Shown here: positions 12,130 through 63,036 of the stretch, in pieces
Numbering within the stretch: position 1 is the first letter of the stretch
How the letters are laid out: each line of letters begins with the position of its first letter
NCBI GenBank assembly: GCA_005223185.1
Contig: NJBN01000006.1
Coordinates: 124,001-188,000 of the forward strand
Length of the DNA: 64,000 bases
Reading direction: 5' to 3'
Source of the DNA: a candidate division LCP-89 bacterium B3_LCP
Lineage (GTDB): Bacteria; Electryoneota; B3-LCP
Notes under the pieces: model-generated
What the model was told of the DNA's origin: nothing
Databases searched by the model: none
The model's input: only the letters and a program-made list of their open reading frames with translations
Translations under genes and position numbers: made by a program

Positions 12130-12150
12130 GATTCCTCCGTGTATTTTAGA

Positions 12151-13584
12151 TTATTTGTTTCCATCTTCAAACTTCGGTTTGAATAGCCCCTCATTCATCA
12201 GTCTTCCTATCGTAGAAGCTAACTCAACCAGCCTTAGTTCTGATATGCCTAACTGACGATACTCACGGTAGTAAGCTTCAGTAACGTTGGCAAAACTGTC
12301 GGACCTGGTGCGTTTCTGCCGCGCATCTTTAACAAAAAGCGCCACCGCCTCAATCAGTTCCTGATTAAGTTCTACACCATCTCTCTCCAATCCCTCCCGG
12401 TAGATGGTTTTTTCGAGCACCGCCTTTACGGCAGCAACGCCACTGTGTTTTCCGAATACGTAACGTATTTGAGCTCCCACCAGTTCAGGATCGATCACCT
12501 GGTAAATCGACTTGTCAATGAGCATCCCGGCAGTATGGATACCCGATTCATGCGTGAAAACTCCCTCACCAATGATGGGCGCATGAGCGGATACGGGAAT
12601 CCCGGAATTCACTTCCACCAGGCGGCGAAGTTCGCGTAGTTTTCCGTATTTAAAATGTGGCAAATCAACGCCGTACAGCAGTTTGAGTCCAACCACCACT
12701 TCATGCAGAGGTGCATTGCCAGCCCTCTCCCCCATACCGTTCACCGTACATGTGGGCACGTTAATCCCGTGGCTCATGGCACGTATGGTGTTGATACCAG
12801 CTAAGCCAAAATCGTTATGGAAATGAACCACCAGGTCTTTCCCGGGGAATTCCTTGACCATACGCGGAATGTAATAGTCAACGCCTTCGGGAGTAAAACA
12901 ACCGACAGTATCGGGAAAACTGTAGCGCGTTCCACCTGCCGCATAACCCGCTTTGGCAAGTTCTATGGTGTAGTCAAGATTTGCGCGAGAGCCGTCTTCT
13001 CCACCAAATTCGATGGATTTTACACCTTTGTCGCAGGCGTACTTGATGGCATCGGTCATCAATTTCAGATTAGCTTCGCGGTAGAATTCTACCGGCTGAT
13101 CCAGCCATTCCGATTCATCCTTGCCCATAAGTTTCAGCAGGGTCTTCCCAACCTTATATTTCAGATGAAGGTCGGAACCGGAGGTAAATATAAAGAAGGT
13201 AATATCATTTATATCAATGTCGATTTCTTCCAGCGTCTGGATGGTCACATCGATGTCTTTGGGATTGGAACGACACATGACCAGGAGTTCCAGGTCTTCC
13301 CGGATTTCACCATCGCGTTTTCCCCGGGCAATGAGTTGGAGGGCGCGCCTGTCGGACAATGCGGCCATGGGAAATCCAAGATCCATTATGTCCACGCCGA
13401 TGTCAGACATGGCTACAGCGAGTTCGTATTTCTGTCCGGGAGAGAAAGCCACGCCGGGCATCTGTTCACCGTCACGCAGCGTGGAATCGTAGATTTTTAT
13501 GCGTTCGGGAGCAGGGAAATTCTTCTTCTTGGTGAAATATGACGCCTGATGAATCAACTTGTCAATTGGTTCGCGGAATTTCAT
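12151..13584 (-). CDS. DRE-TIM acyl transferase: homocitrate/isopropylmalate/Re-citrate synthase-like
   Basis: A 477-residue protein of the LeuA/NifV/Re-citrate synthase superfamily, which condenses acetyl-CoA with a 2-oxoacid. Visible motifs are STLRDGEQMPG, the metal-binding VHFHNDFGLAG, NGMGERAGNAPLHEVV and THESGIHTAG, then GKHSGVAAV. It is shorter than LeuA with its full regulatory domain and longer than NifV. Neighbours are LeuC-, LeuD- and IDH-type genes, so it starts a chain-elongation or citrate-type series. Leucine biosynthesis, homocitrate formation and Re-citrate formation all remain possible; I cannot decide from sequence. The start ATG is preceded by AAGGGA. Confidence 0.8.
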   Translation of the reverse strand: MKFREPIDKLIHQASYFTKKKNFPAPERIKIYDSTLRDGEQMPGVAFSPGQKYELAVAMSDIGVDIMDLGFPMAALSDRRALQLIARGKRDGEIREDLELLVMCRSNPKDIDVTIQTLEEIDIDINDITFFIFTSGSDLHLKYKVGKTLLKLMGKDESEWLDQPVEFYREANLKLMTDAIKYACDKGVKSIEFGGEDGSRANLDYTIELAKAGYAAGGTRYSFPDTVGCFTPEGVDYYIPRMVKEFPGKDLVVHFHNDFGLAGINTIRAMSHGINVPTCTVNGMGERAGNAPLHEVVVGLKLLYGVDLPHFKYGKLRELRRLVEVNSGIPVSAHAPIIGEGVFTHESGIHTAGMLIDKSIYQVIDPELVGAQIRYVFGKHSGVAAVKAVLEKTIYREGLERDGVELNQELIEAVALFVKDARQKRTRSDSFANVTEAYYREYRQLGISELRLVELASTIGRLMNEGLFKPKFEDGNK

Positions 13585-13647
13585 GATACTATTCCCTTTA
13601 GATTAAAACACAGGAAACTTGATGCCCGTATAAGTTCAAATCCTCTA

Positions 13648-14145
13648 TTACCCGGTCTGCTCTTTAATTCTACCTCGAACGTACTCCTCCAAACCCCCAA
13701 CGTCTATTATCCGCCGGATGCTTTCCGGAAATGGCGAAGCAGTGAAAACTCCACCTTTGGTCAGATTCTCAATCTCCCCTTTCTCCAGGTCGATGGATAG
13801 CACATCACCATCATCAGTTGATTCCACCGCCTGCGGACATTCAAGAATAGGCAGACCCACGTTGATGGAATTACGGTAGAATATCCTGGCGAACGATTGG
13901 GCGACCACCGCTCCCACTCCAGCACCCAGAATAGCTAAAGGCGCATTCTCCCTCGACGAACCGCAGCCGAAATTCCTCCCTGCGACGATTATGTCACCGG
14001 ATTTGACACGAGACGCGAAAGTCTCATCCAGATCTTCCAAGCAGTGAGGAGCCAGTTCATCTTTATGAAAAGATGTGCAATAGCGCGCCGGTATGATGAC
14101 GTCAGTGTCAACGTTATCGCCGTATTTAAAGACTGTGCCTTTCAT
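13648..14145 (-). CDS. leuD: LeuD-type hydro-lyase small subunit
   Basis: A 165-residue small subunit of the isopropylmalate isomerase/homoaconitase family ([25 protein letters not shown]). The loop that sets substrate choice in archaeal homologues (Tyr-Leu-x-x: YLVY in isopropylmalate isomerase, YLRT in homoaconitase) is Y22-C-T-S25 here, unlike either. The partner large subunit is 2.1 kb upstream, and a restriction-modification pair and marR lie between them. AAGGT precedes the ATG. Confidence 0.88.
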
Positions 14146-14216
14146 AGTTTACCTTGATAAATTTCCGATTTGTTTTTTTTATTCATCATTTAAGTAGGAG
14201 TACAGTACTATAAAAT

Positions 14217-15095
14217 TTATATCTCTATTGAGATTTGCTTTGTACTTTTCTCTCCGTTCTTAAGCTTCATATCTGCGACAGGCCATACTGCGTCTAGATT
14301 TTTTGTATGTCGATAATCTTTCCTGAATTTTGAAATGAGATCAGCGTTACGTACATTTGTCAATCTCCTCTTAATGAACTCAACGTTTTCTGGATCGACT
14401 TCAATTCCTATCGCTCTACGATGCAGTTGATTGGCTGCAACCAACGTGGTACCAGTTCCCACAAATGGATCAAATACTAAATCATTCACCTTTGACGAAG
14501 AAATGATTATTCTTGTTAATAATTTAACAGGTGATTGTTGTTTATGAACTCTTTCGCCATTTCTGTGCCTCAATGGTTCATCACCAGCATAATAGCCAGA
14601 TGTCAGTTCACGAATATCGTCCCAAACATCGGTTACAAAAACTCCATTGGGACGAGCTTCCCGTTGCGTCACTAACAAAGGCTTGTCTATACGAAGTTTA
14701 TTAAATATTCTGGGCTTTTTCCCTTTGGTATAGAAGGCGATAACCTGATAATGTTTCCCATATCGCTTAGTTCCAGGCACTGCAGACGTCTTTTTTTGCC
14801 AAATAATTAAGTTCTGAAAAGTCCATCCGCTTTTATCTAAGATACTCAAAATATGTTTTGTGTTTTTCTCTCTTTGCATGAAGTAAATAGCACCACCATC
14901 TGATGTGTGCTTATAAATCAATTTACATATTCTCTCCATCCAAGACCAATATTCACTGGACAACATATCGTCATTATGTAAGGAATATTCCTTCTTCTGA
15001 TTAAAGGGCGGATCTAGAAAAGAGAGGTCGAACAGTGATCCGCTATATGAATCTAGAAAATTATCGCACTTATTACAGTAAACTTTCGGGTCCAT
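14217..15095 (-). CDS. DNA adenine-type methyltransferase, beta class
   Basis: A site-specific DNA methyltransferase of 292 residues. The catalytic motif IV is DPPF (about residues 28-31) near the N-terminus and the AdoMet site DPFVGTGTTLVAANQ is near the C-terminus; this order is the beta class, and DPP(Y/F) usually goes with N6-adenine methylation. The N-terminal YCNKCDNFL may bind metal. The frame opens at TTG 15101, but AGGA is correctly spaced for ATG 15095. It follows the endonuclease gene by about a dozen bases. Recognition sequence unknown. Confidence 0.88.
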   Translation of the reverse strand: MDPKVYCNKCDNFLDSYSGSLFDLSFLDPPFNQKKEYSLHNDDMLSSEYWSWMERICKLIYKHTSDGGAIYFMQREKNTKHILSILDKSGWTFQNLIIWQKKTSAVPGTKRYGKHYQVIAFYTKGKKPRIFNKLRIDKPLLVTQREARPNGVFVTDVWDDIRELTSGYYAGDEPLRHRNGERVHKQQSPVKLLTRIIISSSKVNDLVFDPFVGTGTTLVAANQLHRRAIGIEVDPENVEFIKRRLTNVRNADLISKFRKDYRHTKNLDAVWPVADMKLKNGEKSTKQISIEI

Positions 15096-15107
15096 TTGCA
15101 ATTCCTG

Positions 15108-15755
15108 CTAAGGTTTAATTGGTGGGAATAATCCGACTTTCTCTTCTAAGTCAAATGGTGATTTCTCTGGTTTCTTCTTAGTTTGAATGACAACAAAAAA
15201 ACTGTACGCATAAATTGGCCTTGAATGATGAGTTTTAGCTCGAAGGCGTGCCATTAATACAGGACAAAATTGTGGGACCTGCAAATTAGCAACATCCCTA
15301 GCAAGATAAAAAAATCCAAGACCTTCTACCTGGATGTAGTAACACTCTTTTCGCGCATAATATTCATATAAAATATCCAGGTCGCCTAATTTTATTCCGC
15401 CTTTTTCAAATTGTTTTTGATTGTAGATTTTATCTTTTAAAGTAATTTCTTCCTCTAGAATCGAATGCCTCTTCGGTATAAATTTTGGATTGATGTCGTT
15501 GAGAATTTTATACCTATCATAGAGTCCTGTTACAATATCTTCCTTTGCCCAATACCATCCTTCTTCTTCATTCCACTTAAGTCTTTTTTGACCGAAATCG
15601 GGTGCTGTCTTATTTTTCACTTCCAAATAGTACGCTTCACCATGATGAATAAATCCAGCGTCATTCCCACCAACTTCCTGTGGTAGCAACTTTCTTCTTT
15701 TAAGTATTTTTCGGATATAGTCTTCGTAGATCATACCCTTATTAATATTAGACAT
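15108..15755 (-). CDS. Probable type II restriction endonuclease, PD-(D/E)XK fold
   Basis: A 215-residue protein with no family I can name. D32 followed by AYYLEVK (E45, K47) makes a plausible PD-(D/E)XK active site. It lies directly upstream of a DNA methyltransferase with the same orientation, and its AT-rich codon use differs from the catabolic genes around it. Together they look like a type II restriction-modification pair. The assignment as endonuclease is by motif and context. Confidence 0.7.
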   Translation of the reverse strand: MSNINKGMIYEDYIRKILKRRKLLPQEVGGNDAGFIHHGEAYYLEVKNKTAPDFGQKRLKWNEEEGWYWAKEDIVTGLYDRYKILNDINPKFIPKRHSILEEEITLKDKIYNQKQFEKGGIKLGDLDILYEYYARKECYYIQVEGLGFFYLARDVANLQVPQFCPVLMARLRAKTHHSRPIYAYSFFVVIQTKKKPEKSPFDLEEKVGLFPPIKP

Positions 15756-15810
15756 AACTTTAAGTTATTGTAAGATTATTAGATGGATGATTTAGTTCAA
15801 TAAATGATTC

Positions 15811-16257
15811 CTACTCTATATCAGCCCCATTCAAATTATCAATAATCATCCCCAGCAATTTCAGCAGGCTTCTCTTCTCTACAGGAGAGATGGACTTGGA
15901 AGCGTGTTGATTGATCTTTCTGCCGATGGTGTTCCAGACTTTATAGGCTTCGTGCCCTTTCTCCGTCAGAGAAACATGCTGCGCTCGCCGGTCATCTTTG
16001 TCCTGATTGCGGACGATCAGGCTCATCTCCTGGAGTTTGTCCAGACTGCGCGTAATGGTGGCATTGTCAATATTGACGATCTTGCCTAATTCAGTCTGCA
16101 TCAGATGTTCGTTTTCACCCAACGCCATTATGAGCATCCACTGTGAAGGCGTGATGCCCTCATCGGTCAGTTCCTTTTCAAGAGCGGAACGCATCCAGCG
16201 GGCAGCTAAATTAATCTGGGTTCCTAAGCTTTCTGAAAATTTTTCCATATCCTGCAA
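15811..16257 (-). CDS. MarR-family transcriptional regulator
   Basis: A winged-helix regulator of 148 residues: helical N-terminus, then LGKIVNIDNATITRSLDKLQ as recognition helix and the wing NQDKDDRRAQHVSLTEKG, standard for MarR. It probably starts at TTG 16257, just after GAGAGGG, with ATG 16248 as alternative. It follows leuC by about 33 bases. MarR proteins such as BadR and HbaR-adjacent regulators control aromatic degradation by sensing aromatic ligands, so a role in controlling this cluster is reasonable but inferred. Confidence 0.88.
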   Translation of the reverse strand: MQDMEKFSESLGTQINLAARWMRSALEKELTDEGITPSQWMLIMALGENEHLMQTELGKIVNIDNATITRSLDKLQEMSLIVRNQDKDDRRAQHVSLTEKGHEAYKVWNTIGRKINQHASKSISPVEKRSLLKLLGMIIDNLNGADIE

Positions 16258-16290
16258 TTTTCCCTCTCCTCGCCAGATCTAATCTTTAAA

Positions 16291-17550
16291 TTAAATATCA
16301 TCAGGATGCGCAATTTCACCCGCTATTGCGGTAGCACCCGCTACGGCGGGACCAGCTAAGTACACTTCGCTGGTCTGATGACCATTCCTGCCCACGAAAT
16401 TGCGGTTGGTAGTATATAAACCCACTTCGTTTTCGGCTAAAACCCCCATGTGTCCACCGATGCAGGGTCCGCAAGTGGGTGGACCTACCACGGCGCCTGC
16501 CTCAATGAAAGTCGTAACTAAACCGGCGTCAATCATTTCAAGATATACATCATTCGATGAGGGAATGACTATCAGCTTGGTATCCTTATGTACAGCATTT
16601 CCCTTCATAGCTTCAGCAGCCAATTTGAAGTCGCTCAAGCGTCCGTTGGTGCAGGAACCCAGCACAACCTGATGAACTTTTTTTCCCTTCACTTCATCGA
16701 CCGGTGCGGCATTGGAGGGTAGGTACGGCTTGGCTACCTGCAGCGGGAGATCCGAAACATCGAAGTTGTAAACGGCGCTGTACTCAGCATTATCATCGGG
16801 AACCATAGGTTCGTAAATCAACTCCGGGAAGCTTTGCATAAATTCACCGGTTTTGTCATCCGGAGGGACAATGCCAGCCTTTGCTCCAGCTTCGATAGCC
16901 ATGTTGCACAGCGTAAAGCGTCCGTCCATGGACAGATTATCTATAGTTGATCCGGAAAATTCCATGGCTTTGTAAAGAGCACCTTCAACTCCCAATTTCC
17001 CTATAATATATATGGCAATATCCTTCCCGCCAACCCATTTTGGCGGATTTCCATTAACCTTTAACTTAATGGTATCCGGAACCCGGAACCAGAGTTCGCC
17101 CAATGTCCAGGCTGCCGCCATGTCGGTGCTGCCTATGCCGGTGGAAAAAGCGCCTAACGCTCCGTAAGTGCAGGTATGGCTATCAGCGCCCACAATCAGA
17201 TCACCAGGCTTGACCAGGCCCTCATCAGGGAGCAGAACGTGACAAATCCCCGATCTGCCCACTTCGAAATAGTTGAAGATGCCCATTTCCTGAGCAAATT
17301 CGCGCATGGTTTTGGACAGTTCCGCCGCTTTCAGATCCTTGGCGGGGACAAAATGATCGTTGACCAGTACTATTTTCCGAGGATCGAAGACCTCTTTCGC
17401 TCCCATCCTCCGGAACACTTCCACCGAGAGTGGGACAGTGACGTCAGTACCCAGTATCATATCGACTTTAGCGAAGACCAGTTCGCCAGTTTCTACTGTA
17501 TCTTTACCCGCATGCCGAGCGAATATTTTTTGTGCAATTGTTTGACTCAA
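16291..17550 (-). CDS. leuC: LeuC-type hydro-lyase large subunit
   Basis: The 419-residue large subunit of the isopropylmalate isomerase/homoaconitase family. Cluster cysteines are visible in VLGSCTNGRLSDF and GPPTCGPCIGGHMG, and the GADSHTCTYGALG motif is present. The short archaeal/bacterial-type LeuC form is about 420 residues, as here. It starts with TTG (SQTIAQKIFARHAGK); no in-frame ATG near the usual start fits better. The partner leuD is displaced by the marR gene and a restriction-modification pair. Isopropylmalate, homocitrate or citrate could be the substrate. Confidence 0.88.
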   Translation of the reverse strand: MSQTIAQKIFARHAGKDTVETGELVFAKVDMILGTDVTVPLSVEVFRRMGAKEVFDPRKIVLVNDHFVPAKDLKAAELSKTMREFAQEMGIFNYFEVGRSGICHVLLPDEGLVKPGDLIVGADSHTCTYGALGAFSTGIGSTDMAAAWTLGELWFRVPDTIKLKVNGNPPKWVGGKDIAIYIIGKLGVEGALYKAMEFSGSTIDNLSMDGRFTLCNMAIEAGAKAGIVPPDDKTGEFMQSFPELIYEPMVPDDNAEYSAVYNFDVSDLPLQVAKPYLPSNAAPVDEVKGKKVHQVVLGSCTNGRLSDFKLAAEAMKGNAVHKDTKLIVIPSSNDVYLEMIDAGLVTTFIEAGAVVGPPTCGPCIGGHMGVLAENEVGLYTTNRNFVGRNGHQTSEVYLAGPAVAGATAIAGEIAHPDDI

Positions 17551-17593
17551 AGGAATAACCGTTGTTTATCTTTATTTACGATGTTTTTCAAAT

Positions 17594-18643
17594 TCAACTT
17601 TCCAACAGAGATACAATATAATCACCTGATGCACTGGTTCCCAACGAGCCCCCTAAATCTCGCGGCACGTTGTTGGTTTTCACGGCTTCGATGACGGCAT
17701 TTTCAATGCGTGTATTCCAATCAGGATAACCCAAATGCTCCAGCATGATGCCCACAGTCAAAATAGCAGCCAGAGGATTGGCTATATCTTTGCCGTGGTA
17801 CTTGGGAGCGCTGCCATGAACCGGCTCAAAGAGGGAAGTTCTACCCGGGTGAATGTTGCCCGATCCAGCCAAGCCCATTCCTCCTGCTAATTGAGCTCCT
17901 AAGTCGGTGATAATATCACCGAACATGTTGCAACTTACTATGACTTCAAACTGTTCCGGGCGCTTAACCATCTGCATCAGCAAAGCGTCTATGTACCAGT
18001 GCTGCTTTTCAATATCAGGGTATTCTTCCCCAACTTCCGCGAAGGCACGCTGCCAGAGATCGCCCTCAAAACGCATGGCATTGGATTTATCGGACATGGT
18101 CACGCGCGGGCGTCCGCTCATCTTAGCATATTCAAAGGCATGGCGTATTATCCGTTCGACTCCCTTGCGCGTATTAATGGACGTCTGGATGGCTACTTCA
18201 TCAGGCGTTCCCTGCTTTATGATTCCCCCTGTTCCCGCATATAAACCTTCGGTATTCTCTCGAAATACCACGAAGTCTATATCGTCCATCGTCTTGTTTT
18301 TTAAGGGACATAAAGATTCCTGATAGAGCTTCACCGGACGATAATTGACGTAGAGATCCAGCTTGAAGCGCAAACCCAAGAGAATCTCCTTGGCGTGATG
18401 CATATCCGGGACGCGTGGGTCTCCCACTGCGCCGATGTAAATGGCGTCGTAGTTCTCCCGGAAGTTTTCCACCTCTTCATCGGGTAGAGTTATCCCCGTT
18501 TCCAGATACTTATCGGCGCCGTAATCGAAAGTGTCCCAGTTGATATCCACGCCTGCGGATTTAACCGCTTCCAATACCTTTATAGCTTCTTCAGTAACGT
18601 CAATTCCTATCCCGTCACCGGGAATGACTGCGATTTTTTTCAT
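17594..18643 (-). CDS. Isocitrate/isopropylmalate/homoisocitrate-type dehydrogenase
   Basis: A 349-residue beta-decarboxylating dehydrogenase. The active-site set is intact: FRENTEGLYAG (E129), SDKSNAMR (K186), D219, and NMFGDIITD with D243 and D247, plus EPVHGSAPKYHGKDIANPLA for NAD. RENTEG is the form seen in isocitrate, homoisocitrate and related archaeal-type enzymes rather than classical LeuB. Together with the synthase and LeuCD-type genes it completes a citrate- or homocitrate-type sequence that ends in a 2-oxoacid. The substrate is not determined by sequence alone. Confidence 0.88.
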   Translation of the reverse strand: MKKIAVIPGDGIGIDVTEEAIKVLEAVKSAGVDINWDTFDYGADKYLETGITLPDEEVENFRENYDAIYIGAVGDPRVPDMHHAKEILLGLRFKLDLYVNYRPVKLYQESLCPLKNKTMDDIDFVVFRENTEGLYAGTGGIIKQGTPDEVAIQTSINTRKGVERIIRHAFEYAKMSGRPRVTMSDKSNAMRFEGDLWQRAFAEVGEEYPDIEKQHWYIDALLMQMVKRPEQFEVIVSCNMFGDIITDLGAQLAGGMGLAGSGNIHPGRTSLFEPVHGSAPKYHGKDIANPLAAILTVGIMLEHLGYPDWNTRIENAVIEAVKTNNVPRDLGGSLGTSASGDYIVSLLES

Positions 18644-18725
18644 TTTGATATTATTTCGTTTTATTTAATGTTGAGATTAAGTTCTGTGATATGGGATTGA
18701 TAGTCGTTAATTAATTTTGTTATCA

Positions 18726-18782
18726 GGTAGCGCGGGGGCTTGCCCCCGCTAGTAGCAGGCGGCAGCAAGCTGCCGCGCTACC
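18726..18782. repeat. Two GTAG-headed REP palindromes
   Basis: In the 174-base gap before the IDH-type gene, GGTAGCGCGGGGGCTTGCCC begins a 25-base palindrome, and an inverted copy with a different stem (GGCAGCAAGCTGCC then GCGCTACC) follows. Both belong to the GTAG family linked to the transposase at 48.7-49.2 kb. Nothing else is evident in this gap. Confidence 0.85.
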
Positions 18783-18817
18783 TCTCTGGCCCTCATAGAA
18801 ACGTTCAGTTGATTTAA

Positions 18818-21172
18818 TTATTTATTCACCTTACCTGCTTTACGTAGAGCAGTTCTGATTCTTTCCGGCGTCACTGGAAGTTCATTAATCCGTACGCCGG
18901 TGGCATCATATATAGCATTTAGAATAGCGGGAATGGTGGGCATAATTCCGCCCTCACCCACTTCTTTAGCGCCGAAAGGACCGTTCGGTTCATGGCTCTC
19001 TATGATGATGGATTCCAAAGGCGGCATATCCAACGAAGTGGGGATTTTATATTCGGCTAAGTTAGCGTTAATCACTCTGCCGCATTCGTCGTATTTGATC
19101 TCCTCCATCAGAGCTTCACCCATGCCCATCATCATGGAACCTTGCATCTGTCCTTCGACCTGGGTGCGGTTAATGGCGAAACCACAATCGTGAGCACCCG
19201 TTATCTTTTCGACCGTAACTTCACCGGTATCCAGATTCACGTCAACTTCGGCAATTTGTGCGCTGCAGCCGAAAGCGGGACTGGTACCCACAGCAGCTCC
19301 CTTGAAGGACCCACCAAGTTTAGGTGGACTGTACTTTCCTGTCCCCACGATGCTGCCCTTATCTATAAAGGCGACGCGGGCTGCTTCGTTGAAGGTGAGG
19401 TTGCCGCTCTTTACGATTCCCCGGAAACCGCGATGCTCCATGCGGAAATCGTGGCGAAGTTCTTCTATATTTAAATCGCCTTTAGAATTGATAACTTCCC
19501 CATCTATAACATCAAGATCGTCAATCGATGCGCCAGTTTTGTCAGCAATAACTTCTAGAATCTGTGCTTTAACTGATTCAGCCGCCTCTTTAGCAGCAGT
19601 ACCGGTCATCAACGTGGTGCGGGATGAATAAGCGCCCAAATCTACCGCAAGATCCGAATCGCCGGACATTACTCTGACGTCAGAAAGAGGGATTCCCAGC
19701 ACTTCTGCGGTGATCATCGCCAGCATGGTGTCGCTGCCCTGCCCGATATCCGCCGCACCGGATTCCACAATCACACCACCACCAACTTCGTTAAGCTTAG
19801 TAACGACCGTACAGTGAGGCGTCTTGGAATAATAGATGGGATAACCCGCACCCGAAACGAAAAATCCACAGGCGGCACCAATGCCCTTGCCATCAGGTTG
19901 ATCATCACGCTTATTCTTCCAGGCAGCGCTGTCGCGGACGGCTTCAAGAGCTTCTTTCATCCCGAAACTGGACAGGTATAGTTCATTGCAGGTGGTTTCA
20001 CCGGCTTCGCGGACGTTTTTCAAGCGCAGTTCGACCGGATCCATATTCAGCTCTTCAGCGATTCTGTCAAGCTGTATTTCAAAACAGGCGCGAGCTATGA
20101 CAGCTCCATGACCACGCTGTGCACCACAGGCGGGTTTGTTTGTTACCACCCGGTAGCCATCGTACTTCATATTTTCGAGGCGGTAGGGCCCACCCAGTAG
20201 CGAACCGGCGTAATAGACAGTAGCAATTCCAAAACTGCAATAAGCGCCTCCGTCTAAGAGAGCCTCATGTTCTAAAAAGCAGATAGTGCCGTCTTTTCTT
20301 ACGCCGGTGGTCATTTTATGAAAGAACTGGTGGCGCGCCCGAGAATGCAGAAAAACTTGCTCACGATCGAAAGTGATCTTCACTGGTTTGCCGGTTTTCA
20401 TAGCTAACAGACAGGTGGCCAATTCCATAGAAGAACAGGCGGCTTTGGGACCGAATCCTCCTCCAACGGCGGGCTTTACCACCCTGACTTTATGCAGGGG
20501 CAAGCTCAAAGCCATCGCCAGAGTGCGTTGGATGTAGTGGGGCGCCTGGGTGGAGCTGTACATGGTCAAATAGCCCTGGTCGTATGTTGCCAGTGCAGAT
20601 TGTGGTTCCAGAAAAGCAGCATCCTGCATTTTCGAGGTCAGTTCATCGGTGCGAATGACGTCTGCTTCCTTTTGGGCAGCTTCCACGTCTCCGAAATCCC
20701 AATGCACCTGTTGGACGATGTTGTTCTTGTAGCGTTCATGCAACTGTTCTGCCTCATCATCCATCGCCAGATGGGCATCCAGAACTGATGGCAGTTCTTC
20801 AAATTCGACTTTGATCAGATCTAAAGCCTGACGGGCAATTTCGGGAGTTACCGCTGCCACTGCCGCGATTTCATCACCGACATAGCGGACTCTTTCCGAA
20901 GCAAATATCTGTTCATCGTACCTTGCGGGACTGACACCGAAAGCGATTCCTTCTGTATCTTCACTGGTAATGACGGCTTTTACACCGGGGAGTTTTTTCG
21001 CTTCAGTAGTATCTACCTTGACAATCCTGGCATGTGCTTGTGGACTATGCAGGATAGCTCCGAAAAGCATCTCCGGCATAGATAGGTCATCGGTATACTT
21101 CGCCTTGCCGGTTACCTTATCGAAGGCGTCCACCCGGGGTGCGCGAGTATTCAGGATTCGGTAGTCGCTCAT
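18818..21172 (-). CDS. Molybdenum hydroxylase large (molybdopterin) subunit, xanthine dehydrogenase family
   Basis: A 784-residue molybdopterin cytosine dinucleotide-binding subunit. Recognisable segments are AVGGGFGPKAACSSMELATC, SGAADIGQGSDTMLA, QMQGSMMMGMGEALMEE and the active-site Glu in GAKEVGEGG. The family hydroxylates or reductively dehydroxylates aromatic or heterocyclic substrates; beside benzoyl-CoA genes, a 4-hydroxybenzoyl-CoA reductase-like role is tempting. The FAD subunit, however, lacks the iron-sulfur insert of that enzyme at its known place, so the substrate stays open. It overlaps the 2Fe-2S subunit by four bases. Confidence 0.88.
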   Translation of the reverse strand: MSDYRILNTRAPRVDAFDKVTGKAKYTDDLSMPEMLFGAILHSPQAHARIVKVDTTEAKKLPGVKAVITSEDTEGIAFGVSPARYDEQIFASERVRYVGDEIAAVAAVTPEIARQALDLIKVEFEELPSVLDAHLAMDDEAEQLHERYKNNIVQQVHWDFGDVEAAQKEADVIRTDELTSKMQDAAFLEPQSALATYDQGYLTMYSSTQAPHYIQRTLAMALSLPLHKVRVVKPAVGGGFGPKAACSSMELATCLLAMKTGKPVKITFDREQVFLHSRARHQFFHKMTTGVRKDGTICFLEHEALLDGGAYCSFGIATVYYAGSLLGGPYRLENMKYDGYRVVTNKPACGAQRGHGAVIARACFEIQLDRIAEELNMDPVELRLKNVREAGETTCNELYLSSFGMKEALEAVRDSAAWKNKRDDQPDGKGIGAACGFFVSGAGYPIYYSKTPHCTVVTKLNEVGGGVIVESGAADIGQGSDTMLAMITAEVLGIPLSDVRVMSGDSDLAVDLGAYSSRTTLMTGTAAKEAAESVKAQILEVIADKTGASIDDLDVIDGEVINSKGDLNIEELRHDFRMEHRGFRGIVKSGNLTFNEAARVAFIDKGSIVGTGKYSPPKLGGSFKGAAVGTSPAFGCSAQIAEVDVNLDTGEVTVEKITGAHDCGFAINRTQVEGQMQGSMMMGMGEALMEEIKYDECGRVINANLAEYKIPTSLDMPPLESIIIESHEPNGPFGAKEVGEGGIMPTIPAILNAIYDATGVRINELPVTPERIRTALRKAGKVNK

Positions 21173-21666
21173 TTCGCTTCCTCCGGTTGGGCTTCTTCCT
21201 TCATCATATCCTTAGCGGCGGTCAATACAGCTTCCACTATCTTCTGATATCCGGTGCACCTGCAAAGGTTACCGGAGAGCGCCAAGCGCACGTCCGCTTC
21301 GGAAGGATCCGGGTTTTTATCCAGAAGCGCTAAAGCATTCAGCACCATTCCGGGTGTGCAGAAGCCGCATTGTATGGCGCCAACTTCAACGAAGGCTTTT
21401 TGTACGGGGTGAAGTTCACTGCCTTCGGCGACGCCTTCTATGGTCAAAATGTCAAACCCTTGAGCCTCAACCGCCAACACCAGACAGGAGAAGACGGGCA
21501 CTCCGTCCATGAGCACAGTACAGGCTCCGCAGTCACCGATTCCGCACCCTTTCTTGGTGCCGGTCAAACCTAACTGGTAGCGCAGGACGTCCGCCAGCGA
21601 TACATTCGCTTCAACTGCCAGTTCGTGTTCAAGACTGTTAACTGATAGGGTGATTAGTTTTTTCAT
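21169..21666 (-). CDS. Molybdenum hydroxylase 2Fe-2S subunit
   Basis: A 165-residue subunit with the two 2Fe-2S sites of the family: CGIGDCGACTVLMDG...C for the plant-type cluster, and CGFCTPGM with NLCRCTGYQ for the second. It passes electrons from the molybdenum site to FAD. The stop overlaps the large-subunit start (ATGA). The FAD subunit gene is separated from it by a REP-associated transposase gene. Confidence 0.93.
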   Translation of the reverse strand: MKKLITLSVNSLEHELAVEANVSLADVLRYQLGLTGTKKGCGIGDCGACTVLMDGVPVFSCLVLAVEAQGFDILTIEGVAEGSELHPVQKAFVEVGAIQCGFCTPGMVLNALALLDKNPDPSEADVRLALSGNLCRCTGYQKIVEAVLTAAKDMMKEEAQPEEAK

Positions 21667-53115: not shown

Positions 53116-53364
53116 TTATTGAACTATTTTGATGGCGACGTAAGCAGCGATAATCATCATCGTCAGGATGAAAGCGATGGATATGACTTCGGTATAGGGA
53201 AAGCTCTTCGATTTGGCTCCCCTTTTCTTACTCCGTTTTTTTCTATTAAAGTCCGTTCGGGTCATTACTTTGGTATTACCCTTACGATCTTTTACCTTTA
53301 TCAGATCTTCACCGGAATTCGGTTCTTCCGATCCGGTGGGTTCGTTCGACATATCTGTATCCAC
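53116..53364 (-). CDS. Small tail-anchored membrane protein, unknown
   Basis: An 82-residue protein (GTG start, or 78 residues from ATG 53352): acidic N-terminus, very basic middle (RKKRSKKRGAKSKS) and one C-terminal membrane helix (VISIAFILTMMIIAAYVAIKIV). It ends 12 bases before the crotonase start and so is likely in that operon. No family recognised. Confidence 0.6.
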   Translation of the reverse strand: MDTDMSNEPTGSEEPNSGEDLIKVKDRKGNTKVMTRTDFNRKKRSKKRGAKSKSFPYTEVISIAFILTMMIIAAYVAIKIVQ

Positions 53365-53423: not shown

Positions 53424-54434
53424 CTATACGGCGGTATAGAAGCGTGGCTCTGCGGGTATCTCCTCATCCAATTTGAATTGGCGATTGACCAGGAAAGAGC
53501 CATTTTCTTCATCGACGCACAACTCGAAGCCGGGAATTTCTTCATCCCAAACCTGAGCGGCAATTCTAACCAAGTCGTACATCAGTTCCTGATCATCTCT
53601 TTTTTCCGGTGAAACCCAAATTCCTAAGCGCCAGTAATCCTCCAGGTCGCCTAAAGTCCAAATCCACAAGACAGCATTAATAGACTGACCTGATTTTTCG
53701 ATAGTTACCTTGCGTACCTGGCTGCGCTGCATAGATCCCCTCATCTCCGGTATCTGTTCAAATTCTTCCCAGAGGGAAGCCCAAAGATATGACGGAACGA
53801 ACGACTGATCCAATGATAACAAATCCCCCATAGGTAAATCAGAATGCGGAATGTCCGTTACACTATGCGGTAATTCTGATGGAGATAATTCCGATCTGGA
53901 TATCCTGTATTTACGGTTTAATGCCAACAACTCCCAACGGCTATCATCTAAGTTGGCGGCGAGTGCTCTGGAACTGAACGGACAAATTGCCAATGTGGAA
54001 AAGCCACGCGATCTGACCTCTTTCTTGGCGAATGCGTACAGCTTGGGGATAGGATCCTCGGTAAACGTGGTGTCAGCTTGAATTATCGTTACCGATCCGG
54101 TTTTACCGATAGGAGATGGCTCTTCGGCACACCAGATTTCGCAAAATGCAACCAACCTCTTCATGACGCCTTCGGTCTCTTCAGCGCCTAAAACGAACCC
54201 GCCATTTCTGGTGAGCCAGTTGAAGTGGTTTTTGTACATCGAAGGATCACACCAAACGCCTCCGTTGAGGTACTTCTGGTACATGGTCAGCCTTTCCCAT
54301 GGCAGCATTTTGGTCTTCTTGACCGGATCGGTGGGCCATTCATCGACTCCAGTGTGTTGCTGCCATAAGCGGCGGTTTGAAAGGGAAACAATAGCGTTAA
54401 TGTCCGATGTTCTTACTGGTCTTAATGTTATCAC
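53424..54434 (-). CDS. GNAT-like acetyltransferase, function unknown
   Basis: A 336-residue protein that starts like a GNAT N-acetyltransferase (ITLRPVRTSDINAIVSLSNRR). A second part (SQVRKVTIEKSGQSINAVLWI and IWVSPEKRDDQELMYDLVRI) may be a further GNAT-like half. The acetyl-CoA loop is not clear enough to claim activity. It starts with GTG 54434, which has AGAGG five bases upstream; the preceding gene ends 48 bases away. Confidence 0.55.
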   Translation of the reverse strand: MITLRPVRTSDINAIVSLSNRRLWQQHTGVDEWPTDPVKKTKMLPWERLTMYQKYLNGGVWCDPSMYKNHFNWLTRNGGFVLGAEETEGVMKRLVAFCEIWCAEEPSPIGKTGSVTIIQADTTFTEDPIPKLYAFAKKEVRSRGFSTLAICPFSSRALAANLDDSRWELLALNRKYRISRSELSPSELPHSVTDIPHSDLPMGDLLSLDQSFVPSYLWASLWEEFEQIPEMRGSMQRSQVRKVTIEKSGQSINAVLWIWTLGDLEDYWRLGIWVSPEKRDDQELMYDLVRIAAQVWDEEIPGFELCVDEENGSFLVNRQFKLDEEIPAEPRFYTAV

Positions 54435-54482: not shown

Positions 54483-55553
54483 TCACCGATTGTTGGAGCG
54501 TCCGCGCTTGATCTGATCAGTGATGAAATCACCAACCTGACTGCAGTTTAACCGCCCTTTCAGATCGCTGGTGGTGTTGTCCGTTTCCAGAGCGTACTTC
54601 AGAGCTTTGTCAACCCAGCTCGCTTCCTGCTCAAAACCGAAATTATTGAGCATCATCACAGTCGCTGCAATGGAGCCTAACGGATTGGCAACATCATGCT
54701 GAAGACCGCCCGCACAGGAACCGTACGCTGGCATGTAGAGGGACAATTTACCCGGATTCAGATGACCCTCAAAAGCCAATCCCATACCACCCTGAACCTC
54801 AATGCCTAAGTCGGCAATCACGTTGCCAAACATGCTGCAGGGGACCACCACATCCATCTCTTCCGGTCGAGTTAAAACCTGGTGTACGAGATCTTCCAGA
54901 AGTATATTTGTCTTTTCAATATCAGCGTACTCTTGCCCTACTTCATCGAAGATATGGCTCCAGATATTGGTGCCCAGACGCATGTTGCAGCGTCCACTGC
55001 AAATAGTAACCCTCTTTCGTCCCTGTTTGCGCGCATATTCGAACGCATATTGAATGATCTGACGTATCCCTTTACGAGTGATCATACTGTGTTGAAGATG
55101 CTCTTCATCGGGCGTTCCCTTCTTGAAGACGACGTTCAGATCGGGATTCGGTCCTTCTAAGTTGTGCCTGACAACTACGAAATTGACGTCCTCTGGTCTC
55201 TTATCCTTCAGAGGGCAATGCTTGACGTCGTATAAAATCACAGGCATCAAATTTACGTATAGATTCAGTTTTAAACGTAAATTTGACAGAACCTTGCGGG
55301 TATAGAGGTCATCAGGTACACGCGGATCACCTAATGCCCCGATCAAAATACCATCGAAATTCTGCCTCAAATCTTCGATCTGTTCATCGGTAATGGAAAC
55401 TCCGGAGTTGAGAAACTTCTCAGCGCTCAGTTCAAATTCCACTAAACCTAAATCGAGACCGGAACGATCGATAACGGCATTCAGAACCTTCACCGCTTCA
55501 GCGGTAACCTCAACGCCTATACCGTCTCCCGGGATGATTGCTATTTTTCGCAT
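54483..55553 (-). CDS. Degenerate isocitrate/isopropylmalate dehydrogenase homologue
   Basis: A 356-residue protein clearly homologous to the enzyme at 17594 (start RKIAIIPGDGIGVEVTAEA, LIGALGDPRVPD, overall spacing). Key positions differ: the Arg-Glu-Asn-Thr-Glu motif is RHNLEG (H130 for Glu), the catalytic Lys motif DKSN is S-G-R-C (186-189), the Asp of the second subunit is E220, and the first metal Asp is N244; D248 is kept. HGSAP becomes YGSCAG. Loss of several catalytic residues argues against normal oxidative decarboxylation. It precedes the GNAT-like gene and follows hisC. Confidence 0.85.
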   Translation of the reverse strand: MRKIAIIPGDGIGVEVTAEAVKVLNAVIDRSGLDLGLVEFELSAEKFLNSGVSITDEQIEDLRQNFDGILIGALGDPRVPDDLYTRKVLSNLRLKLNLYVNLMPVILYDVKHCPLKDKRPEDVNFVVVRHNLEGPNPDLNVVFKKGTPDEEHLQHSMITRKGIRQIIQYAFEYARKQGRKRVTICSGRCNMRLGTNIWSHIFDEVGQEYADIEKTNILLEDLVHQVLTRPEEMDVVVPCSMFGNVIADLGIEVQGGMGLAFEGHLNPGKLSLYMPAYGSCAGGLQHDVANPLGSIAATVMMLNNFGFEQEASWVDKALKYALETDNTTSDLKGRLNCSQVGDFITDQIKRGRSNNR

Positions 55554-55589: not shown

Positions 55590-56693
55590 TTAATCTGATA
55601 CTTCAAGTCGTTCTAGCACTTCCCCCAGCGCCCCGAACAACTTCTCATGCTCATCCGGCATACCCACACTGACACGACAGCAGGTAGGCAGCTCGTAAGG
55701 TCCCATGGGACGGATGATTACTCCCCGCTTGAGCAATTCCACGAATATTTCATCGCATGAATGATTGAAATTGGCCAATACGAAATTGGTGATTGAAGGT
55801 ACAACCTCCAGCCCTAACTTCGTCAGACCAGTTTCCAACTGATTCAATCCCTGCCGGTTGTTGCGCATGGTATCCGCTAAATAGTTAACGTCATCCAAAG
55901 CTGCTTCCGCAGCCACCTGCGCTAAGGCATTACAGTTAAAGGCTTCGCGCACCTTATGCATGGAAGCGATAAGATCAGGATGAGCGAAAGCGTAGCCGCA
56001 ACGAATGCCGGCTAACCCGTATGCCTTGGAAAACGTACGCAGGACAATCACCCGTTTCCCCGCCTTGACGTATTCTAACCCATCCGGATAGTTTTGTAGA
56101 TCTACGAACTCATAATAAGCTTCATCGAGAACCAGGATAGCTTCAGGTGGCAACGCTTCTAAAAGGCGATCAACAGCACTTTTATCCAAATAGGTTCCCG
56201 TGGGATTATTGGGATTGGCGATGAAGACCAAGCGCGTTTGGGGATTAATATGGCTGATAATAGCTTCTATATCGTAGGCATAATCGGGCATGGCAACCAT
56301 GACAGGTTGAACACCCATTATCTGACAGGCTATGCGGTACTTGAAAAACGCCTGCGGACCGGTAATGGCTTCCCCACCGGGTTCTAAGAACGCTTCACAG
56401 ATGAGTTCGACAATTTCGGTAGAGCCGTTACCCAGAATGATCCCCCGCGGATCAGCATCGTGATGATCGGATAGCTTATGCACTAATGAGTATCCGCCAG
56501 CATCAGGATAAAGGTGAAGTGAAGCGACCGCTTCCTTCATAGCTTTTATCGCCGATGGCGCTGGTCCCAAAGGGTTCTCATTGGACGCTAACTTGACAAT
56601 ATCCGTAACACCATATTCACGGGCTACTTCCGAAATCGGCTTTCCTGGAATATAAGGATGAATTTCTGACAGAATAGGGCGCGCTAAATCCAT
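55590..56693 (-). CDS. hisC: Histidinol-phosphate/aromatic aminotransferase
   Basis: A 367-residue fold-type I PLP aminotransferase of the HisC family: VKLASNENPLGPAP, NGSTEIVELICEAF, NPNNPTGTYLD, VLDEAYYEF and the Schiff-base Lys in TFSKAYGLAGIRCGY. HisC enzymes often also transaminate aromatic amino acids; with no other his genes here, and iorAB in the window, an aromatic role is conceivable. ATG 56693 is used. It is 36 bases from the dehydrogenase-like gene. Confidence 0.9.
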   Translation of the reverse strand: MDLARPILSEIHPYIPGKPISEVAREYGVTDIVKLASNENPLGPAPSAIKAMKEAVASLHLYPDAGGYSLVHKLSDHHDADPRGIILGNGSTEIVELICEAFLEPGGEAITGPQAFFKYRIACQIMGVQPVMVAMPDYAYDIEAIISHINPQTRLVFIANPNNPTGTYLDKSAVDRLLEALPPEAILVLDEAYYEFVDLQNYPDGLEYVKAGKRVIVLRTFSKAYGLAGIRCGYAFAHPDLIASMHKVREAFNCNALAQVAAEAALDDVNYLADTMRNNRQGLNQLETGLTKLGLEVVPSITNFVLANFNHSCDEIFVELLKRGVIIRPMGPYELPTCCRVSVGMPDEHEKLFGALGEVLERLEVSD

Positions 56694-59505: not shown

Positions 59506-61533
59506 CTAGAATTTATCTCTTTCAAGCAGATATTTCTCATGGTCCTTTTTAGTGCCTTCAATTAATTTTGACCACTCATACCTTTTTAGTTTTCCTTTTC
59601 TCTCTAAACTATCTATGGCTTCACTGATAGTAAAATCTACGTTTACAGAATCTGCAATAATAATTGCCATATAACCATTTGGGAAATTCTCAAGAAAAAC
59701 AGGGTTTTCGACTAAAAACATTTGAAGTGCTTCAAGATATTTGTTGAATCTATCCCAATCTGTTTTATTGAAAGTATGTTTTGGAGGTTTTATCTCCACA
59801 ATTACTATGGCACTCTCTACATCTAACATTATAAAGTCAGGTTTTTTAGTCTTATAAATAATAGATGCAGAAGTCACAATATCCTTATGATATTTTTTAT
59901 GAAACCAGGACTCAAAAGCCTCCTGGAAATTTTTTAAATTTCTATTAGCAGTAACTGGTTCCCAGCGTGAATTTATGAGCCAGGGAGCATCCTCTAAAAT
60001 TTTTTGTAACTCCCTTTCGTCAGTTCCAACCTGCCCTATTGCTTCCTGAAGTACATCAATAGTCTTGAGTTTTTCAGTAACTATCTGGCCGAATGAAGCT
60101 AATTGCGCTATTTTAGTGCTTTTTATTAGCTTTAATAAAGCTTTTATGTCTATCTTACCATCAGCTGAAATATTTCCAATTGATCTAAAGGCATCCACTA
60201 AAAGCTTATGTGGTGCAACTGACAAGATTAATTCAGCTAGATCATTAACATAATCATCATTAAATCTTAACTCCTCTTCAGAAGCAAACCCACCCAATTT
60301 TTCGCCAACATCAATAGCAGCCTTTACAATTTCCGAATCAGAAAACCTTTCTTCTGCTTTTTCTTTTAATTTCGAAATTTGTAAAAACAGTAGCTTCGTT
60401 TTTTCGCTCCGGGGCTTTCTGCCCCGTTTAGCGACTTCTTTAACAAGTGACTGTCCCCATTTCTCGAAATCTTTTCCTAAATCTGAACTCCATAAAATGT
60501 CCTGTCTATGGGTTTGAATTAAATCTTCTTCATCGTCTAGCCAATCGGCGTGTATAGCACCAACTAAATAAGATCTCATAACATATTCACCTTCAAAACC
60601 AGATGGTATTCCAAAATCACGTGTCCATGAAACTATTTTACCTCTAGCATATATTCGTATTCCAGCAAAAGGTTCATCCTTATGAGGATCTTTTGCCATT
60701 CCTATCCAACCATTAACAGGTAATTCCAAGCCGCTTTCAGTTTTAACTGGTCTATCGGATACATCTACTCTAGTCGCATCCATAGTAGGAATGTCAATTA
60801 GTTGTATTGTAAAAGCGGGATCTGGTTCCTCTTCCTTGGTATCTACAACATTTACTTCAAAGTCGTGATCTGTTAATCCAAATCTTGAGGCTAGCTGTCT
60901 TTTCAGTATCTCTCTATCGGGTATTTTTTTAAAAGCAAAATTTCTCAGTATAATTCTAGTCCCTCTGGTTTCATCCCAACTATAATCATCATCAAGTGTA
61001 TTTGGACGATAATTCGTATCTTCATTACCTTCAGTTTGTTCAATAATTTTATCGTAATCTAATTCGAAATGAGTTACTCTATATCCATCCTCCGTTTTGG
61101 GTCCTCCTGCGGACCTGATCTCAATAGTTTTACAGATACCGAATGGCGCAAGTTTACCAATTCCCTTACGCCCCATCACTTTTCTTCCCTTTTCTCTTGA
61201 GGTTGAACCCTGATGAGGATTTTTTCTTCTATCTGCACCAACTCGCAAGTAAAGATCATCTGCTTCGTTTGGTGTCATGCCGTGACCATTGTCTTCAACT
61301 TCAATAACATATCCTCTTTGCTCGATAATACCACTTTTTTTTACAGCAAGGAATTTTCCAATGGGTAGTTTAACTGTAACCCTTTCTGCATCAGCATCAT
61401 AAGCATTCGCTATTATTTCAGCAACCACTGCGGATGCCTTATCATACATCTGAAGACCCAGCTTATCGACAATAGTTCTTTCGATCCTTAGAGTATATTG
61501 GACCTGTTCTGAGTTATCCTTCGATTCATTCAT
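59506..61533 (-). CDS. MORC-like GHKL ATPase fused to PD-(D/E)XK nuclease domain, R-M associated
   Basis: A 675-residue protein. N-terminal GHKL ATPase: N-box VVAEIIANAYDAD (E39, N43), G1 EDNGHGM (81-86) and G2 MGRKGIGKLA (120-129). The C-terminus holds a nuclease-like core, PDF (D566), then IVIVEIK (E580, K582), as in PD-(D/E)XK restriction nucleases. GHKL/MORC-type ATPases of this kind are known in restriction-modification loci with Dcm and Vsr. ATG 61533 has AGGTG before it; the frame could open at TTG 61557. It follows dcm by 26 bases, so ATPase, methylase and Vsr form one operon. Confidence 0.82.
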   Translation of the reverse strand: MNESKDNSEQVQYTLRIERTIVDKLGLQMYDKASAVVAEIIANAYDADAERVTVKLPIGKFLAVKKSGIIEQRGYVIEVEDNGHGMTPNEADDLYLRVGADRRKNPHQGSTSREKGRKVMGRKGIGKLAPFGICKTIEIRSAGGPKTEDGYRVTHFELDYDKIIEQTEGNEDTNYRPNTLDDDYSWDETRGTRIILRNFAFKKIPDREILKRQLASRFGLTDHDFEVNVVDTKEEEPDPAFTIQLIDIPTMDATRVDVSDRPVKTESGLELPVNGWIGMAKDPHKDEPFAGIRIYARGKIVSWTRDFGIPSGFEGEYVMRSYLVGAIHADWLDDEEDLIQTHRQDILWSSDLGKDFEKWGQSLVKEVAKRGRKPRSEKTKLLFLQISKLKEKAEERFSDSEIVKAAIDVGEKLGGFASEEELRFNDDYVNDLAELILSVAPHKLLVDAFRSIGNISADGKIDIKALLKLIKSTKIAQLASFGQIVTEKLKTIDVLQEAIGQVGTDERELQKILEDAPWLINSRWEPVTANRNLKNFQEAFESWFHKKYHKDIVTSASIIYKTKKPDFIMLDVESAIVIVEIKPPKHTFNKTDWDRFNKYLEALQMFLVENPVFLENFPNGYMAIIIADSVNVDFTISEAIDSLERKGKLKRYEWSKLIEGTKKDHEKYLLERDKF

Positions 61534-61559
61534 AATTACACCTGTTTTTGTGAACAAAC

Positions 61560-62624
61560 TTATGACTTAAAACACCGCTTGGCCAGAGTAAAAGCAAATT
61601 GTGGTGGCAAGCCATTCCCTACTAAATCAGTCGCTACATCCAAACTATTCGTTTCAAACCTGTAGGAAGATGGAAAAGTTTGGATTTTTGCGGCCTCGAG
61701 AACTGATAACGTTCTAATTTCATCTGGGTGGCCGAACCTGCCTTTGCATGGAGTAGCGAATCCAGTTGTCATTGTGGGTGGCGTTTGATCCCAGCTAATT
61801 CGCCCATAGACGTTGCGGAAACCAGAATTATTCCCCTTATGGCAATTTGGTCTTAGCGTATCCGGCAGATCAAACCTGTTGCACCCTGGTTTAAGTGATC
61901 TATAGCGCTTTCTACTTAACTCAGTTATGTCCCTCACGACGTGCCAGTTGAACTTTTGAGGGCCGCCTTTAGCGTTTGCTTCTGAAATTGTGACTGCTTG
62001 TCCCATTTTCCCAATAATGTCTGAGAGTGTCGGCCAGGGTTTTAATTGTGAGTTCATTTTGTTTGAATGTGTCTTCGGTGGTAAAGGAACACTGAATCCC
62101 TTACCTGCAAGAAGAACGAACCTTCTCCTCGATTGTGGAACTCCATAGTCCGCAAGTTGGAGAACGTCCATATTAATGACGTAATCAAGTTCCTCAAGAC
62201 GAAGGATAAATTCATCTAATATCTCTTTCCCACGCGTTACTATTCCTGAAACATTCTCAAACATGACCATTTTGGGTTGTATTTCTTCGATTAACCTTGC
62301 CATCTCCAATACGAGGTCATTTCGGGGATCGTTTCTGTGGTATTTATCTGTTAGCTTGGAGAATCCTTGGCATGGAGGACAACCTGCAACCAAATCAATA
62401 GTGGAAGTTGGCACTAATTTTAAAAAATCCTTCCCCGAAAGGTTTCGAATATCATCTATAAAAAGCTCCACTTCAGGATGATTGGTTGAATACGTATGGG
62501 CTATCTCCGACTTAAATTCAACACCTGCGATCACGTTGAATCCCGCTCTTTTCAGACCGAGAGTCAACCCACCTGCTCCACAGCATAGATCAATCGCTAC
62601 CGGTTTTACTTTCTTATTGCGCAT
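61560..62624 (-). CDS. dcm: DNA cytosine-5 methyltransferase
   Basis: A 354-residue C5 methyltransferase: motif I DLCCGAGGLTLGLKRAG, motif IV GCPPCQGFS with nucleophile C85, motif VI MFENV, motif VIII PQSRRRF, and motif X LVGNGLPPQFA. All core motifs are present, so it should be active. The target recognition domain lies between VIII and IX; its sequence is not known to me. The start overlaps the vsr stop by about 11 bases. Confidence 0.93.
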   Translation of the reverse strand: MRNKKVKPVAIDLCCGAGGLTLGLKRAGFNVIAGVEFKSEIAHTYSTNHPEVELFIDDIRNLSGKDFLKLVPTSTIDLVAGCPPCQGFSKLTDKYHRNDPRNDLVLEMARLIEEIQPKMVMFENVSGIVTRGKEILDEFILRLEELDYVINMDVLQLADYGVPQSRRRFVLLAGKGFSVPLPPKTHSNKMNSQLKPWPTLSDIIGKMGQAVTISEANAKGGPQKFNWHVVRDITELSRKRYRSLKPGCNRFDLPDTLRPNCHKGNNSGFRNVYGRISWDQTPPTMTTGFATPCKGRFGHPDEIRTLSVLEAAKIQTFPSSYRFETNSLDVATDLVGNGLPPQFAFTLAKRCFKS

Positions 62625-63036
62625 CGATTATCCGTAATAATCGGCTTTTTACCTTTACCTGGTTCTTATTAATGTCAGTGTCCCAAAATCTCCAGACTGA
62701 CCAGCCATCTCTGCGTAACTTACTTCTGATTCTCTCGTCCCGTTTCTTATTATTTTTTAATTTATTCACCCAGTATTCACGATTTTTCCTAAAAGCCTTA
62801 CCGGTGATTTCTTTCTCCCTTCTTCCATGCCAAAAGGAGCTATCGCAAAATATCAGGACGTTTGTACCCTTAATTCTGAAGTCAGGATTACCTTCTAATT
62901 TCGGTTGTCTATGATATTTTATCTTCAATCCCTTTAATAATTTCTCCATTTCTTTTTCGATGCTAGTACCTCGACTCTTAACTTTCCGCATCCTTTCTGT
63001 CGTCTCTATGGTTGGTTTAACGTAGCTCTGCTTCAT
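62614..63036 (-). CDS. vsr: Very short patch repair (Vsr) endonuclease
   Basis: A 140-residue T:G mismatch endonuclease: TERMRKVKSRGTSIEKEM, NPDFRIKGTNVLIFCDSSFWHG (in parts) with D52 and H70 as active-site residues, and WRFWDTDI near the end. It repairs T:G mismatches from deamination of 5-methylcytosine made by the adjacent Dcm. It may instead serve as restriction enzyme of the locus, as proposed for some Vsr-like proteins. It starts 14 bases after glgC. Confidence 0.93.
   Translation of the reverse strand: MKQSYVKPTIETTERMRKVKSRGTSIEKEMEKLLKGLKIKYHRQPKLEGNPDFRIKGTNVLIFCDSSFWHGRREKEITGKAFRKNREYWVNKLKNNKKRDERIRSKLRRDGWSVWRFWDTDINKNQVKVKSRLLRIIDAQ

Follow-up and report, generated by a model that had tools for sequence, protein, structure and literature searches.

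A candidate non-catalytic pseudoenzyme of the isocitrate/isopropylmalate dehydrogenase fold conserved in one family of Electryoneota

What is a dehydrogenase fold kept for once most of its catalytic residues have been replaced? The question is raised by a gene at positions 54483-55553 (minus strand) of the window, by which we mean the whole 64,000-nucleotide stretch of contig NJBN01000006.1 from the bacterium B3_LCP that was analysed; genes are named here by their lower coordinate. A first-pass annotation had described the product as a maintained, full-length homologue of isocitrate and isopropylmalate dehydrogenases (IDH/IPMDH), with either altered chemistry or a regulatory role. The frame starts with ATG and is open for 356 codons, and an AlphaFold model of the protein gave a confident fold (pLDDT 91.6, pTM 0.91) in which the cleft is still present, so the reading of a full-length protein with its fold intact stands. 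Using this model as a Foldseek query, we retrieved M. tuberculosis LeuB and P. putida tartrate dehydrogenase (1w0d and 3flk, TM about 0.9), bacterial 3-isopropylmalate/tartrate/isocitrate dehydrogenases of the PF00180 family that share the same full-length fold at 34% and 32% identity, and from which 54483 differs by the replacement of 13 of 20 substrate, metal, NAD and trans-donated residues. The protein belongs to the PF00180 fold family (221.7 bits against a cut-off of 27) and falls under every NCBIfam equivalog cut-off for 3-isopropylmalate, tartrate, homoisocitrate and isocitrate dehydrogenases, its best score being 274 bits for PRK03437 (cut-off 393). It is the lowest scorer of the four PF00180 genes in this 3.79 Mb genome, the others being 17594, an NADP-IDH type gene (C7) and a LeuB/IDH-like gene (C12). 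Its Pfam score alone would make it resemble an ordinary dehydrogenase, which is a caution for annotation.

To describe the pocket, we chose 20 positions guided by the well-known pocket of Thermus isopropylmalate dehydrogenase. The intact paralogue 17594 (17594-18643, minus strand, 349 aa, outside the pseudoenzyme unit) scores 427 bits with PRK03437 (3-isopropylmalate dehydrogenase), above the cut-off of 393, has all 20 pocket residues, and aligns with 54483 nearly without gaps over almost the whole length at about 45% identity. The two proteins differ at 13 of these positions. Every substitution reported earlier was found at the residue named: E129 to H130, D185-K186 to S186-G187, D219 to E220, D243 to N244, and HGSAP to YGSCA (H276 to Y277, A279 to C280, P280 to A281). 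We identified further losses (R102 to M103, Y135 to N136, N188 to C189, N239 to S240, E273 to M274), and the NAD loop reads EPVHGSAP in the paralogue and MPAYGSCA in 54483. The second pocket Arg is thus Met103, the catalytic Tyr is Asn136, the catalytic Lys is Gly187, and the metal Asp positions hold Glu220 and Asn244, leaving D248 as the one metal ligand kept; the other retained pocket residues are R93, R129, N131, G278, S279 and N290. The same 20 positions show 0-3 differences in 15 active orthologues from the phylum and in 80 relatives from other contigs, so the change in 54483 lies far past ordinary variation. These 80 relatives were retained from a profile scan and have an essentially intact pocket in all cases; a single-sequence scan of the genome contigs found no relative. 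The objection that the residues are merely shifted does not hold, since the motifs align nearly gap-free and the six orthologues described below share none of the replacement residues. On these residues, the protein is probably without catalytic activity. Some pseudoenzymes do prove active.

We searched for orthologues in 39 genomes of the phylum, comprising 6 genomes of the source's own family (G000 and G010-G014, representing six genera) and 33 genomes outside it. A full-length divergent second copy was present in 6/6 family genomes and 0/33 others, and the Pfam search gave exactly these six orthologues as full-length proteins with low scores. They form one clade (support 100/99) with long branches of up to 1.7 changes per site, placed outside the phylum's active orthologues. 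An AU test rejected a recent within-family duplication of 17594 (p about 1e-7, with the long branches as a caution), and likewise a tree joining the pseudoenzymes to the family's 17594-type copies together with G037 and G038 (p about 1e-4). An older paralogue is therefore the likely origin of the clade, the length of its branches keeping this short of certain. With a catalytic motif lost, the fold and the gene kept, and six full-length orthologues in a single clade, 54483 fits by sequence the definition of a pseudoenzyme as a protein that has lost conserved catalytic motifs and kept its fold (PMC10211241).

The search for relatives with the same substitutions, which had been proposed as a check, thus yielded six orthologues, but each has lost a different set of residues. 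Substrate, metal, NAD and trans-donated residues are eroded in all six, every orthologue being without 11-14 of the 20 pocket residues. The G010 orthologue, for instance, has kept the Lys and lost the Tyr, the first Arg and the first metal Asp, and the G014 orthologue has kept both metal Asp residues and lost all three Arg and the Lys. Pairwise pocket identity is 0.24 in the pseudoenzyme clade, against 0.41 across the whole protein and 0.99 in active enzymes. Restricting the comparison to columns that are invariant in active enzymes, we obtained pseudoenzyme-clade identities of 0.25 in the pocket versus 0.45 elsewhere (permutation P 0.003). No replacement residue is common to the six orthologues, the loop Gly (G278) is the only pocket position of the 20 kept in 6/6, and neither a conserved new active site nor a conserved ligand pocket is visible among them. 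Such a pattern is what an early loss followed by drift would leave, and not what reconstruction of the active site or a ligand pocket common to the six would.

Other parts of the protein have been retained. Residues 306-350, which form the C-terminal helices, have an identity of 0.61 in the pseudoenzyme clade versus 0.54 in active enzymes, whereas outside this segment the identity of the clade falls 0.41 relative to active enzymes. Of 349 shifted windows of the same length, just 6 matched this retention, and when the same four genomes were used in both groups the identities were 0.63 (pseudoenzyme) and 0.65 (active). Residues 12-40 (0.60 in both groups) provide weaker evidence, being matched by 49 of 349 shifted windows. 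Invariant residues specific to the pseudoenzyme clade include W313, K319, Y320 and R334. Judging from the fold, the retained helices would lie on one face. The retained segments may have been kept for folding instead of binding. Conservation has relaxed most in the small domain that forms the dimer (0.31 versus 0.78 in active enzymes). As synonymous sites are near saturation, we measured selection by setting the identity of fourfold-degenerate sites against that of the protein. Third bases at fourfold sites are 0.29 identical among the six genes, near chance, and amino-acid identity averages 0.41; in the same comparison protein identity is 0.82 for 17594 (four genomes), 0.66 for the adjacent gene 53424 and 0.71 for butyrate kinase. 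The 54483 gene is therefore under purifying selection, which is looser than on its neighbours. Taken with the six full-length orthologues in one clade and the strongly kept C-terminal helices, this supports the proposal of a maintained protein and not one in simple decay.

We then compared gene neighbours, as had also been suggested, and found 53424 (53424-54434, minus strand, 336 aa) directly downstream of the pseudoenzyme gene in 6/6 genomes, followed in all six by 53116 (53116-53364, minus strand), which encodes a small protein with one membrane span and a basic N-terminal segment. Orthologues of 53424 occur in 6/6 family genomes, 0/33 other genomes of the phylum and 0/20 other genomes, and are 62-70% identical across the six genera. 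Presence in the same genomes and constant adjacency make 53424 the leading candidate partner; this co-occurrence is suggestive and not proof, since the six genomes form one clade and represent a single evolutionary event. The 53424 protein matches nothing in Pfam or NCBIfam and nothing convincingly in the PDB, and is a candidate new domain family. The matches returned by a PDB profile search were all short and to designed helical-repeat proteins, and we took them as chance; single-sequence fold prediction gave no usable model (pLDDT 39.5). Its similarity to GNAT proteins is sub-threshold, no acetyl-CoA loop motif was found, and comparison of one half against the other lent no support to a tandem-GNAT arrangement (probability 0.9%); for these reasons we do not call it an acetyltransferase.

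Our best explanation, to which we give about even chances, is that 54483 is a conserved non-catalytic pseudoenzyme of the IDH/IPMDH fold, restricted to one family, whose role is to scaffold or stabilise another protein, most likely 53424. The common ancestor of the six orthologues would have lost dehydrogenase activity, and the pocket would then have drifted. What selection would since have kept is a surface of the large domain that binds another protein, made of the C-terminal helices 308-323 and 337-350 and perhaps helix 12-31. Through this predicted surface the protein may scaffold or stabilise its partner, most probably the 336-aa product of 53424, and it might do so near the membrane by way of the small membrane protein encoded alongside. 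If true, this would be a non-catalytic use of the IDH fold by a route unlike that of IDH3, in which the pocket and the lent residues drift and the C-terminal helices stay, and the analysis of the pseudoenzyme would have named a specific partner candidate, 53424.

The IDH3 subunits of eukaryotes are familiar examples of non-catalytic paralogues of this fold that nevertheless contribute residues to a catalytic partner, and the regulatory role envisaged earlier could take this form, 54483 pairing with 17594 or another IDH and tuning its activity, possibly through an effector bound in the altered pocket. Like IDH3 beta/gamma and yeast IDH1, it is a non-catalytic paralogue of the same fold found beside active members, and a partner is always available, as other intact PF00180 enzymes are encoded in every family genome, including the two without a 17594 orthologue. 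We nevertheless consider this quite unlikely. The active site of human IDH3 combines the catalytic subunit with the regulatory subunit's small domain (PMC6827300), and across eukaryotes NAD-IDH shows largely strict conservation of its allosteric site, active site and interface (PMC5241874). Unlike these regulatory subunits, the 54483 clade keeps neither the lent Lys/Asp nor the pocket: the equivalents of Lys186 and Asp219, which are lent in trans, are each kept in 1/6 orthologues, the putative effector pocket is as variable as described above, and relaxation is greatest in the dimer domain. Also unlike them, a 54483 orthologue occurs without a 17594-type paralogue in two genomes (G013 and G014), which are also without an orthologue of the LeuC-like neighbour 16291. 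An assembly gap is unlikely to explain this, since both operon partners are missing from the same two genomes, which suggests that some members of the family lost the 17594/LeuC-like set in one piece. With the lent residues scarce, the pocket unconserved and 17594 missing in 2/6 genomes, a family-wide regulatory subunit of 17594 is unlikely, and the hetero-oligomer with 17594 put forward in the first-pass annotation is disfavoured, the lent residues being lost in 5/6 orthologues. A regulatory pseudoenzyme in a broad sense is possible; it is the IDH3-type role with 17594 that the lost lent residues speak against. The protein does not descend from the eukaryotic duplication, the eukaryotic subunits having arisen within eukaryotes (PMC8333347), and we found no bacterial pseudoenzyme of the IDH/IPMDH family in the part of the literature that our search covered.

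The 17594 gene itself lies within a LeuABCD-like set (12151 LeuA-like, 13648 LeuD-like, 16291 LeuC-like), in an apparent anaerobic aromatic-degradation region at 10999-21666 that includes genes for a 6-oxocyclohex-1-ene-1-carbonyl-CoA hydratase (10999) and a 4-hydroxybenzoyl-CoA reductase-like protein (18818). The product of this set may be 2-oxoglutarate, or an analogue of it, and not leucine.

The partner of 54483 could instead be another product of the local cluster, namely HisC, enoyl-CoA hydratase, butyrate kinase or the phosphate butyryltransferases, and the layout in the window lends this some appeal: hisC (histidinol-phosphate transaminase; 55590-56693, minus strand; TIGR01141 330 bits, cut-off 276.55) lies directly upstream, and the enoyl-CoA hydratase, butyrate kinase and ptb genes lie downstream on the same strand with close spacing. 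However, hisC adjoins the pseudoenzyme gene in only 4/6 genomes, the butyrate genes are downstream in most genomes but unlinked in some, and 53424 and the gene for the small membrane protein are the only two that come after the pseudoenzyme gene in every genome, which makes a partner other than 53424 improbable.

A titrating, dominant-negative subunit, forming a heterodimer with an active IDH-type enzyme in which neither shared active site can be completed, would follow from the loss of trans-donated residues in a fold whose active sites are shared across the dimer (PMC6827300). It would call for a dimer face that has been maintained; conservation is lowest in the small and clasp domains, however, and 17594, the closest active paralogue, is absent from G013 and G014; we regard it as very unlikely. 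A different active site built from the altered residues is a highly improbable explanation of the data. The fold and cleft do remain in the model and two Arg and one metal Asp are kept in 54483 (R93, R129, D248), but a new chemistry would leave a common catalytic set, and the freely varying pockets of the six orthologues, with G278 alone kept in all, hold no such set, so the earlier suggestion of altered chemistry finds no support. A gene heading for decay and not yet disrupted would account for the much faster evolution of 54483 than of its neighbours and for its long branches, but it is the least credible reading in view of full-length copies in six genera, a protein identity well above what near-saturated fourfold sites would leave in the absence of selection and the retained C-terminal helices.

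Returning to the scaffold or stabilising role with 53424, we also inspected where the pair sits in relation to other families. Weaker relatives of the small membrane protein 53116 occur in families f4, f7 and f8, and a PEGA-domain membrane protein (about 570-600 aa) is paired with such a relative in three loci (L174, 8063-10173; L175, 4210-6428; L176, 6198-8406). Genomes G037 and G038 (families f7 and f8) encode, in this order, hisC, a PEGA-domain membrane protein of about 600 aa and a relative of 53116, and the slot of their PEGA protein is occupied in the source's family by the pseudoenzyme and 53424. That the pair functionally replaces the PEGA protein is speculation. On the strength of the shared slot by hisC and the small-membrane-protein relative in two related families, a doubtful but conceivable extension would be that an IDH-type paralogue, positioned by the tree outside the active copies of the phylum, turned into a structural partner of 53424, and that the two may fill the PEGA protein's place in a membrane-associated complex.

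Elsewhere in the window, genes at 59506-63036 encode a 683-aa ATPase-like protein, a C-5 cytosine DNA methylase (61560) and a 140-aa frame. They separate an M16-type protease gene from glgC, two neighbours in G012 (L026), and appear to be an insertion in the form of a restriction-modification or defence-like island.
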